In this document: positions 19,528-50,302 of the stretch, piece by piece
How positions within the stretch are numbered: the first letter of the stretch is position 1
Layout of the letters: each line of letters opens with the position of its first letter
Assembly (NCBI GenBank): GCA_021651055.1
Contig: JAJHOH010000001.1
Location: forward strand, 806,001-870,000
Length of the DNA stretch: 64,000 bases
Direction: 5' to 3'
Origin: Candidatus Manganitrophus morganii
Lineage (GTDB): Bacteria > Nitrospirota > Nitrospiria > SBBL01 > Manganitrophaceae
Translations under genes and position numbers: made by a program
The notes under the pieces: generated by a model
Databases searched by the model: none
Told to the model about the DNA's origin: nothing
What the model saw: the letters and a program-made list of their open reading frames with translations, nothing else

Positions 19528-21360
19528 CTATTTTTTGGCCAGACGCTTCCGGTCCAGTTCGCTTAGGTATTTCTTCCGCAACCGGATTGTCTGAGGGGTA
19601 ATTTCCAGGAGTTCATCATCCGCCAGGAAGGCAATCGCCTCTTCTAAACTCATTTTTCTCGGCTGAGTCAATACGAGGGCATCCTCTGCGGTGGAAGAGC
19701 GGAAATTGGTAAGATGTTTCTTTTTAGAGGCATTCACAATCAGGTCGTTCGCCCGGGAATGCTCGCCGATGACCATTCCCTCATAAATTTTCTCTCCGGG
19801 AGAGACGAAAAGAACGCCTCGTTCTTGAATATGATGGAGCGAAAAAAGGATCGCCTCGCCGGTTTCCATCGAAATCAGCGCCCCCTTTGTTCGAGAGGAG
19901 ATCTCGCCCTTGTGCGGTTGGAAAGAGGAAAAGGTGTAGTTCATGATTCCCGTGCCGCGGGTGGCGGTTAAAAATTCGGATCGATAACCGATCAATCCCC
20001 TGGACGGGACCTCGAATTCGAGACGAACGTGCCCGCCGAGCGTGTTCCCCATATTGACCATCTCTCCCCGCCGTCGGCCGAGCCCCTCCATCACCGTCCC
20101 AATATAGGCCTCTTCGATATCGAGCATCAGGCGCTCGATCGGCTCATAGGTTTTCCCGTCGATCTCTTTTAAAATGACGGTCGGCCTCGAAACGGCAAAC
20201 TCATATCCCTCCCGTCGCATCGTCTCAATGAGAATCGAAAGATGGAGTTCTCCCCGCCCCGACACCTTGAAAACATCGGTGTTCCCGGTGTCTTCGATTC
20301 GGAGCGCGACGTTGGACCGGAGCTCTCGATAAAGACGCTCCCGAAGGTTGCGGCTCGTGACGAACTTCCCCTCTTTCCCGGCGAACGGAGAGGTGTTCAC
20401 CATAAAATTCATCGAAATGGTCGGCTCGCCGATGGAGATCGTCGGCAGCGCCTCCGGCGCATTCGGATCGGCCAGGGTGGCGCCGATCTGCGCCTCTTCA
20501 AAGCCGGCCACGCCGATGATCTCACCCGCGGCCGCTTCGGCCAATTCCACCTTTTTCAGCCCCTCATATCCGATAATTCGCGTGACCTTTCCCTTAATAT
20601 TCGCTCCCTCTCCCTGAACGAGGGCCAGGGTCTCTCCGACGCGAATTTTCCCGCGAAAGATCCGCCCCAACGCGATCCGGCCGACAAAATTATCATAATC
20701 AAGAGAGGTCACCAGCATCTGTAGCGACGCCGCCTCATCTCCGGCAGGAGGACCGACCCTTGAAATGATCGTGTCAAAGAGGGGCGAGAGATCGGTGGAG
20801 GAATCTTCCAGGTTCAGCTTGGCGAAGCCCGCTTTGGCCGAGGCGTAAACGATCGGAAAGTCGAGTTGATCGTCATTGGCTTCCAATTCGAGGAAAAGAT
20901 CGACCACCTGATCGACCACTTCCTTGGGCCGGGCGTCGGCCCGGTCGATTTTGTTGATGACGACGATGGGGCGGAGGTTGAGCTCCAGCGCCTTTCTGAG
21001 AACAAACTTGGTCTGGGGCATCGCCCCCTCAAACGCGTCCACGAGAAGAAGAACCCCATTCACCATGTTGAGGGTCCGCTCCACCTCTCCCGAAAAGTCG
21101 GCATGGCCCGGGGTATCGACGATGTTGATCTTGAACTGCTTATAGTGAACCGACGTATTCTTGGCCAAAATCGTGATTCCGCGCTCCCGTTCCAGGTCGT
21201 TGGAGTCCATGACCCGCTCGACAACCCCTTCATGGGATTTAAAAGCCCCTCCCTGCCGGAGCATCTTATCCACCAAGGTCGTCTTTCCATGGTCGACGTG
21301 CGCGATAATCGCAATGTTTCGAATGTCTTCTCTCAACTTGTTCTGGATTTCGGCCTTCAT
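19528..21360 (-). CDS. typA: Ribosome-associated translational GTPase TypA/BipA
   Basis: The 610-residue protein, normal length for TypA, has G1 [11 protein letters not shown]3 DTPGHADF and G4 NKIDR. The EF-G-like domains II, III and V and the TypA C-terminal domain follow ([19 protein letters not shown] is diagnostic). It binds ribosomes and supports assembly and growth in cold or stress. Promoter, short leader and an intrinsic terminator (21381-21410) precede the ATG, so transcription may be attenuated. A MITE-like element ends about 9 bp upstream of the -35 box. Confidence 0.97.
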
Positions 21361-21380
21361 GCTTCTGTCGGTTCCCTCTC

Positions 21381-21410
21381 AAAAAAAAACCCCAAAAAGC
21401 TTTGGGGTTT
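21381..21410 (-). terminator. Intrinsic terminator inside the typA leader
   Basis: On the minus strand, a 9-bp stem AACCCCAAA / TTTGGGGTT with a 4-base loop is followed by an unbroken T run. It lies between the typA promoter and its ATG, so it would stop transcripts of about 60 nt. Confidence 0.85.
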
Positions 21411-21450
21411 GTGTGGATATACGCGGACCCAAAAAAGTTACGTGGAACGG

Positions 21451-21479
21451 ATTATAACACTCTACCGCCGGTTCGTCAA
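21451..21479 (-). promoter_or_regulatory. Sigma70 promoter of typA
   Basis: TTGACG, a 17-base spacer and a perfect TATAAT on the minus strand, with a predicted start near 21444. Confidence 0.85.
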
Positions 21480-21487
21480 TCGATATA

Positions 21488-21689
21488 CTCCCGACGGTAG
21501 TGACTCATTTTGAAATTCCAAAGTCGTCATGCCCGCGGAAGCGGGCATTCAGAGGTTTTAAATCACTGGATTGCTGTCGCGAAGCGATCGGAGGCGCTGT
21601 GCACATCAAGTCGGTTCCAGGCGCTTTCCCGCCTGCGCGGGAATGACAATCCAGAAATTGATTCCAGACTCAGTCACTACCCTCCCGAC
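21488..21689. mobile_element. MITE-like element with terminal inverted repeats and 8-bp target duplication
   Basis: The element covers 21496-21681 (186 bp). Its ends are the perfect 10-bp inverted repeat GGTAGTGACT / AGTCACTACC, and it is flanked by CTCCCGAC at 21488-21495 and 21682-21689. Inside are palindromic blocks, including GCCCGCGGAAGCGGGC and an inverted GTCATxCCCGC / GCGGGAATGAC pair. There is no coding capacity, so it would be moved by a transposase elsewhere. The rest of the typA-purC gap is the typA leader and about 30 bp with a further ATATACTCCCGA copy. Confidence 0.8.
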
Positions 21690-21718: not shown

Positions 21719-22630
21719 TTACTTTGCCAAACGTTCGAGCGCTTCAAAATATTTCCGGCTCGTCTGCTCCACAACCGAGGCGGGGAGATGAGGCGGAGGG
21801 GGAGTGCCGCTCCAGTTGACCGAGAGGAGATAGTCGCGGACATACTGTTTGTCAAAGCTCGGCTGCCCCTTGCCGGGGGCGTAGGTGTCCATCGGCCAGA
21901 AACGGGAAGAGTCGGGGGTGAGAAGTTCGTCGATCAAAAGGGGGCGTTTCGTCTTCGGATCCAGGCCGAACTCCATCTTGGTATCGGCGATAATGATCCC
22001 CCGCTTTTCGGCGTGCGCCGCCGCCTTTTTGTAAATGTTCAGGCTCGCCGCGCGGACCTCTTCCGCGAGGGAGGCTCCGACCGTCGACTTCATCTCTTCG
22101 AAGGAGATGTTGATATCGTGGGTTCCCATCGGCGCCTTGGTCGAAGGGGTAAAGATCGGCTCCGGAAGACGGGCCGATTCGACCAGGCCCGCCGGCAACT
22201 TCTCGCCGCAAACGGTCCCTGTTTTTTGATATTCCTTCCAGCCGGAGCCGGAAAGATACCCTCGGACGATGCATTCGACCGGAAGCGGCTCGGCCTTCCG
22301 AACCAGCATGCTCCGCCCTTCCAGAACATCCCGATAAGGACGGCACTTTTCAGGAAAGCGGTCGAATTCCGCAGTGATTACATGGTTCGGCACCGAATCG
22401 CCCATTTTGGCGAAGAGGTCGAACCAATGCAGAGAGAGCTGTGTGAGGACATAACCTTTTCCGGGAATCCCCTCCGGCAGAACGACGTCGAAGGCGGAGA
22501 TCCGATCGGAGGCGACGAAGAGAAACGCGTCTCCCAGATCGTAAATATCGCGCACCTTCCCCCGCGTCGGCGTCCCCAAGCCGGTCAGTTGACTCTCCAA
22601 GAGAATCTCTTTCGGTACCTTCATTTTCAT
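21719..22630 (-). CDS. purC: Phosphoribosylaminoimidazole-succinocarboxamide synthase
   Basis: The 303-residue SAICAR synthetase starts KVPKEILLESQLTGLGTPTRGKVRDIYDLG. The motifs VASDRISAFDVVLPEGIPGKG, LPVECIVRGYLSGSGWKEYQKTG and IIIADTKMEFGLD identify it. It joins aspartate to CAIR in purine synthesis using ATP. It is the long form (about 300 residues), as in many Proteobacteria, Nitrospirota and yeast. The ATG at 22630 is chosen since GGAGG lies eight bases upstream; an ATG two codons earlier is too close to it. No other pur gene is adjacent. Confidence 0.97.
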   Translation of the reverse strand: MKMKVPKEILLESQLTGLGTPTRGKVRDIYDLGDAFLFVASDRISAFDVVLPEGIPGKGYVLTQLSLHWFDLFAKMGDSVPNHVITAEFDRFPEKCRPYRDVLEGRSMLVRKAEPLPVECIVRGYLSGSGWKEYQKTGTVCGEKLPAGLVESARLPEPIFTPSTKAPMGTHDINISFEEMKSTVGASLAEEVRAASLNIYKKAAAHAEKRGIIIADTKMEFGLDPKTKRPLLIDELLTPDSSRFWPMDTYAPGKGQPSFDKQYVRDYLLSVNWSGTPPPPHLPASVVEQTSRKYFEALERLAK

Positions 22631-22700
22631 CCCCATAACCTCCGCTCCCTCTTGTTTTAGAAATCGTTCCTTTTTATCCTACCCGCGACCCGATTGTCAA

Positions 22701-49904: not shown

Positions 49905-49933
49905 TTGACGCAATCGGCTCGTTATGATATATA
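49905..49933 (+). promoter_or_regulatory. Sigma70 promoter of the cspA leader
   Basis: TTGACG, a 17-base spacer, then TATATA, with a predicted start near 49940. Confidence 0.7.
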
Positions 49934-49973
49934 AGAGGCAGTCCATTGTAAAAGTTGAACAGAATCCATCGGA

Positions 49974-50010
49974 AGCTGCAGCCTTTTACAACACGCTGCG
50001 GCTTTTTTAT
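49974..50010 (+). terminator. Intrinsic terminator in the cspA leader
   Basis: Stem AGCTGCAG / CTGCGGCT (one G-U pair) followed by six T then AT. It lies 40 bases after the predicted start and 86 bases before the cspA ATG, so most transcripts would be about 70 nt. Confidence 0.75.
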
Positions 50011-50095: not shown

Positions 50096-50302
50096 ATGAT
50101 CAAAGGAACCGTGAAGTGGTTTAACGGCAGCAAGGGCTATGGGTTTATCACACGTGAAGATGGACAAGGCGATGTCTTCGTCCACTTTACCGCGATTGTG
50201 GGCGACGGCTACCGCTCCCTCGAAGAGGGAAACGCGGTGGAATTCGAAGTGACCCAAGGCCAAAAAGGGCCGCAAGCCACCAACGTCAAACTCGTTTCCT
50301 AA
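50096..50302 (+). CDS. cspA: Cold-shock protein (CspA family)
   Basis: The 68-residue single cold-shock domain starts at ATG 50096 ([22 protein letters not shown]), with RNP1 KGYGFI and RNP2 VFVHF intact. It acts as an RNA chaperone. A long 5' leader (about 155 nt) with a terminator hairpin precedes it. It is followed by fusA after a hairpin at 50328-50357. Confidence 0.97.

Follow-up and report, generated by a model that had tools for sequence, protein, structure and literature searches.

Leader attenuators of the trp/his type, riboswitches, T-boxes and protein-dependent antiterminators share one layout, in which a promoter is followed by an intrinsic terminator, a ribosome-binding site and the gene, and read-through of the terminator decides expression. 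Csp proteins are antiterminators in E. coli, where their targets lie in the operon metY-rpsO-pnp. In start-site switching of the pyrC/pyrD type, the extreme 5' end of the RNA can fold into a hairpin, which forms or not according to the exact start nucleotide and blocks translation. The GTPase TypA/BipA is needed for assembly of the 50S ribosomal subunit at low temperature (PMC8313970, PMC6962249). BipA levels rise in the cold both in V. cholerae, where the increase is post-transcriptional (PMC7886329), and in E. coli, where it is transcriptional as cited in PMC7886329. We found no description of a typA/bipA leader terminator in the open-access literature or in Rfam. Leader terminators as such are well known, and the novelty here is a putative start-site-proximal attenuator linked to typA in distant groups of bacteria.

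The typA gene of Candidatus Manganitrophus morganii lies on the minus strand of the window (the whole stretch of 64,000 nucleotides that was analysed) and has the same order of parts as these attenuators:

21719 to 22636, minus strand: purC, the gene upstream of typA
21497 to 21680: repeat-like insert, ~180 bp long, separating purC from the typA promoter
21451 to 21479, minus strand: promoter TTGACG-17-TATAAT (TTGACG at 21479-21474, TATAAT at 21456-21451), with TG before the -10
21425 to 21436, minus strand: leader segment TTTTTTGGGTCC, whose TTTGGG can pair with CCCAAA of the terminator 5' arm
21387 to 21410, minus strand: terminator hairpin AAACCCCAAA-GCTT-TTTGGGGTTT, a perfect 10-bp stem with a predicted stability of -12.2 kcal/mol at 37 C, conserved in layout
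21381 to 21389, minus strand: unbroken run of nine T, abutting the stem and partly inside it, the expected point of termination
21374 to 21380, minus strand: ribosome-binding site GAGAGGG, starting at the base directly after the T run
19528 to 21360, minus strand: typA/bipA coding sequence, 610 amino acids, ATG at 21360, scoring above the TIGR01394 cut-off

An earlier note on this DNA had proposed a promoter and a strong terminator ahead of typA, leaving a transcript of about 60 nt. Both elements are present as described; the promoter matches 11 of 12 bases of the E. coli-type consensus used for scoring. The transcript length also fits, taking the T run to end at 21381 and transcription to start near 21444, a position estimated at about 7 nt past the -10. 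The hairpin begins 40 nt after the -10. Promoter hexamers and spacing are identical in five relatives of the source genus, and the nine T are present in the typA leaders of all six genomes of that genus (6/6). About 30 nt stand ahead of the hairpin in the source genus, including TTTGGGTC, which is invariant across the six genomes. This part of the leader is possibly a weak antiterminator special to the genus: the alternative fold of a partial leader is predicted at -5.8 kcal/mol, as against -12.2 kcal/mol for the terminator.

The repeat-like insert has inverted ends GTAGTGACT(C/G)A and leaves the promoter-hairpin module intact. It is absent from the sister genomes G002 and G004 (loci L002 and L030), and two distant partial copies (~78% identical) occur in 1.26 Mb of the source genome. 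In G004 the typA gene (G004:C1:3628527-3630355) is broken into two overlapping frames, and lepA of that assembly has two stops; both are probably sequencing errors of the assembly.

The layout is conserved in the relatives where the earlier note had suggested looking for it. We took the regions upstream of typA from 57 genomes of the source class, Nitrospiria, and applied a uniform test that requires a promoter score of at least 8 (on the same E. coli-type consensus in all genomes, a limitation of the scoring) and, 0-60 nt past the -10, a hairpin at least as stable as -8 kcal/mol and followed by a strictly defined T-tract. The typA leaders of 42 of the 57 genomes pass, compared to none on the antisense strand and 0.2 in shuffled sequences, and a terminator precedes typA in 49/57. 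By the same test, none of 30 leaders of lepA, the gene for a paralogous GTPase, passes in these genomes. The 15 genomes that fail include some with a terminator but no scored promoter and others with neither. At two loci (L023 and L038) the T-tract is short or weak, and poor termination is expected. Outside the class the layout is mostly absent from the phylum, with 3/29 genomes of other classes passing. Stems differ by family: AAACCCCAAA in the source genus, ACCCCAAG in family f10, and GCGCCTC and GACGCC forms in family f6. In family f5 the segment homologous to the stretch ahead of the hairpin in the source genus belongs to a single long hairpin whose beginning is near the start site, and the T-tract lies about 70 nt away from the start codon.

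The layout recurs in at least two distant bacterial groups, and probably in four. In a wider sample, consisting of typA genes from the best-matching 80 genomes listed and covering many phyla, 10/79 leaders pass the uniform test (antisense 4, shuffles 0.8), and by eye about six of these are credible: one from Geobacteraceae, three from Paenibacillus, one from Clostridia and one from Lactobacillus. The layout is firmly established in the source class and in Geobacteraceae, where 26 of 29 genomes pass (antisense 2) and 28/29 have a terminator. Geobacteraceae hairpins have the stem GGACGGGC/GCCCGTCC or CGACGGGC/GCCCGTCG and the T-tract TTTTATTTTG, are unrelated to the source stem, and lie 9-15 nt past a TTGCCA-17-CATAGT promoter; such tight geometry was seen in 0/170 leaders of one Geobacteraceae genome. 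The layout is likely to be present in part of Paenibacillaceae (11/29 pass). For Lactobacillaceae the data are suggestive: a hairpin with a T-tract precedes typA in 21/30 genomes, nearly all with the stem CTGTGAC/GTCACAG, and only 7/30 pass the test because the hairpin is further from the promoter or the promoter score is low. The E. coli bipA leader, which we also examined, has no terminator hairpin.

In Lactobacillaceae (L381-L410) the promoter is TTGACG-17-TATGCTA/TATCATC-like and, in many genomes, sits within the 3'-terminal part of the preceding gene. The CTGTGAC/GTCACAG stem is near-invariant, a degree of conservation that seems to exceed what a plain terminator needs.

The terminator is conserved as a structure and not as a sequence. 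Between families the typA stems have no common sequence, and within families the pairing is kept through substitutions. Among 22 Geobacteraceae hairpins, 98.3% of cells pair and two pairs show changes on both sides (GC to CG and AU to GC); the 16 hairpins of family f6 likewise have 92.2% of cells paired and both-side changes at two pairs. In neither group did any of 500 shuffles match the paired percentage or the covariation score, and slid pairings gave 31-64%. The genes upstream of typA vary among genomes, as judged by a crude classification by longest ORF, which links the hairpin to typA rather than to the preceding gene.

The position of the hairpin is also characteristic. The -10 is followed by the hairpin after 7-15 nt in Geobacteraceae and in families f6, f10, f12 and f7, and each family keeps to its own distance: 9-15 nt in Geobacteraceae, and 7-10 nt for the largest family in the class. 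Most lineages thus have a hairpin that begins about 1-10 nt from the predicted start site. An aptamer, T-box or leader peptide would not fit ahead of it, and in lineages with short leaders the whole terminator is inside the first 30-45 nt of the RNA. This is where typA differs from the known leader attenuators: it has no aptamer, specifier loop or leader peptide, and mostly no space for one. Rfam gave no match at gathering score in the window, nor in the typA, csp and rpsU loci of relatives. The best permissive match, MicC, is a chance one (28.6 bits against a gathering score of 90). These Rfam results and the short distance from the -10 in most lineages led us to reject a riboswitch or T-box. 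A leader peptide was rejected as well, as the short leaders have no room for one, and the only in-frame start in the source leader is a TTG with no ribosome-binding site; its frame, which closes at a TGA past the T run, is not kept in the relatives.

The joint conservation of promoter, hairpin and T-tract across the class and in other families strongly supports the reading of the typA leader as a transcription attenuator. From sequence, fold, conservation, covariation and linkage to typA we infer termination in cells, its regulation and the kind of factor behind it. RNA polymerase would start at the -10/-35 promoter, and the first 30-60 nt of the RNA would fold into the intrinsic terminator. 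Most polymerases would halt at the T-tract, and typA would be made only by those that read through. Read-through would be controlled by a protein whose target is either the nascent hairpin or RNA polymerase, with a cold-shock RNA chaperone, a NusA/NusG-type factor or feedback linked to TypA or the ribosome as candidates. Control at the level of a protein or of the polymerase seems the most likely form because in most lineages a sensor would not fit upstream of the hairpin. Overall, we think it probable, with substantial doubt, that typA has a transcription attenuator whose read-through depends on a protein factor or on RNA polymerase itself.

The same lack of room upstream of the hairpin would also suit a terminator that does no more than cut typA transcription down to a constant fraction, with read-through unregulated. 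We regard this as unlikely: a weaker promoter would do the same job, several families keep every element of the layout with stems of unrelated sequence, which points to more than the setting of a dose, and the invariant TTTGGGTC of the genus leader is able to pair with a terminator arm. A more improbable reading is that the element is no terminator at all, and that a hairpin at the 5' end protects the mRNA while a U-rich site for ribosomal protein S1 boosts translation. In many lineages the RNA does open with the hairpin, and the U-rich tract stands ahead of the ribosome-binding site, but in the f5 group the T-tract is far from the start codon, and in practically all positives it abuts the stem as in a terminator (an observation that is partly circular, as is the terminator reading, because positive cases were chosen by a T-tract rule). 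We give very little credence to the possibility that the hairpin ends transcription of the upstream gene or insulates against read-through from that gene. In many Lactobacillaceae genomes the preceding gene does run in the same direction and its stop codon comes before the hairpin, but the hairpin is kept in that family where the upstream ORF points the opposite way (L381, L382, L385 and L410), and at many loci it stays while the upstream ORF is opposite or different. In the source genome, about 310 nt separate the end of purC from the hairpin, and the typA promoter sits in between; because of this promoter and the varying upstream genes, we rejected the reading of the source hairpin as the purC terminator.

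A parallel with the cold-shock gene csp had been drawn in the earlier note, and csp in the window does have a promoter, hairpin and T-tract in its leader:

49905 to 49935, plus strand: csp promoter TTGACG-17-TATATAAG
49946 to 49954 with 49983 to 49991, plus strand: alternative helix of TTGTAAAAG with CTTTTACAA, strong and competing with the terminator
49973 to 50009, plus strand: leader terminator AAGCTGCAGC..GCTGCGGCTTTTTT with T-tract, conserved in the class
50096 to 50302, plus strand: csp coding sequence, 68 amino acids

The csp leader terminator is found in 25/29 csp leaders of the class, where the hairpin takes CCGCAG..CTGCGG or GCTGCAGC forms. In contrast to the start-site-proximal hairpins of typA, it lies about 40 nt past the -10 and 90 nt before the start codon and is accompanied by a strong competing helix, a classical antiterminator layout.

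The layout that typA shares with csp is real, and the earlier note's attenuator for typA is strongly supported; its guess of temperature-sensitive antitermination is a plausible hypothesis. The typA hairpin is predicted to be fully paired from 10 to 55 C and to be stronger in the cold (-17.6 kcal/mol at 10 C, -8.5 kcal/mol at 55 C). This rules out an RNA thermometer that works by melting, and with it melting as a switch for read-through at low temperature. Because the hairpin is more stable in the cold, read-through there would need an RNA chaperone such as Csp, or another factor. Transcription could stop at normal temperature and Csp could melt the hairpin after cold shock, raising TypA. This model is possible, though we lean against it. 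Besides the role and rise of TypA/BipA in the cold, it has in its favour that Csp proteins are antiterminators in E. coli and that csp, the likely antiterminator family, has the same conserved layout. As in Csp antitermination in E. coli, the typA hairpin is a simple terminator that such a chaperone might melt; the E. coli targets do not include typA, for which Csp is a candidate factor. Against the model, the hairpin is stronger in the cold; mreB and tolQ/exbB, which are not obviously cold genes, also have the layout in the source genome; and cold control of bipA in E. coli does not require a leader terminator, since the gene there has none. Judged by analogy with csp, some cold component in the control of typA is plausible.

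How often such an arrangement arises by chance was assessed in 1.26 Mb of the source genome, where a strict scan for a promoter followed by a terminator was passed by 8/587 leaders, compared to 3 antisense and 4 shuffled ones. So few pass that typA belongs to a small group of leaders with both elements, and among these eight it has the top promoter score; the credible members are typA, crcB, tolQ/exbB, rpsU and mreB, and csp joins the set in a scan that does not require a strong promoter score. Taken by itself, the scan of a single genome gives a weak excess over chance, and the case is carried by conservation.

Several of these other leaders lie outside the window. The leader of rpsU (ribosomal protein S21; G000:C1:1843441-1843680, minus strand) has TTGACA-17-AATAAT and then a hairpin GCCCCCAGAGAGC..TTCTGGGGGT with a T-tract. 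Like csp, it has the typA order of promoter and leader terminator with conservation in relatives, which for rpsU reaches no further than the genus and a few more genomes in the order. At mreB (G000:C1:1829171-1830220, plus strand) the hairpin GTTCCGGATTCCCGGAAC-GTTTTTG is 5 nt past TATAAT and 20 nt before the start codon, a geometry as tight as in the typA leaders of other families. Further leader terminators are at G000:C1:1320514 (thrS), 1199335 (tolQ/exbB) and 1594299 (crcB); the crcB leader is probably a fluoride riboswitch, and that of thrS is probably under tRNA or protein control.

A more specific model is that the start-site-proximal attenuator of typA arose independently in several phyla, with the first 30-45 nt as the terminator, and that termination is switched off by a shift of the start site or by an early-elongation factor. 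A shift of a few nucleotides could be enough, since the hairpin's 5' arm starts at about +1. The resemblance is to pyrC/pyrD, with the difference that a T-tract comes after the typA hairpin, which would act by halting transcription. That typA switches start sites is a guess, and we hold the model as a whole to be doubtful. If it is true, the proximal typA attenuator would be a minimal one, without a sensor RNA, tied to ribosome assembly and possibly to the cold.

Little is known of how cells adjust the amount of TypA/BipA, a GTPase of ribosome assembly that they need in the cold. A conserved stop signal just past the typA start in distant groups would offer a concrete point of control, and suggests premature termination as a recurrent way of regulating this gene. 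With almost no upstream sequence, typA may be a simple system in which to search for factors acting on terminators or in early elongation, and Geobacter sulfurreducens and lactobacilli are tractable hosts for such work.
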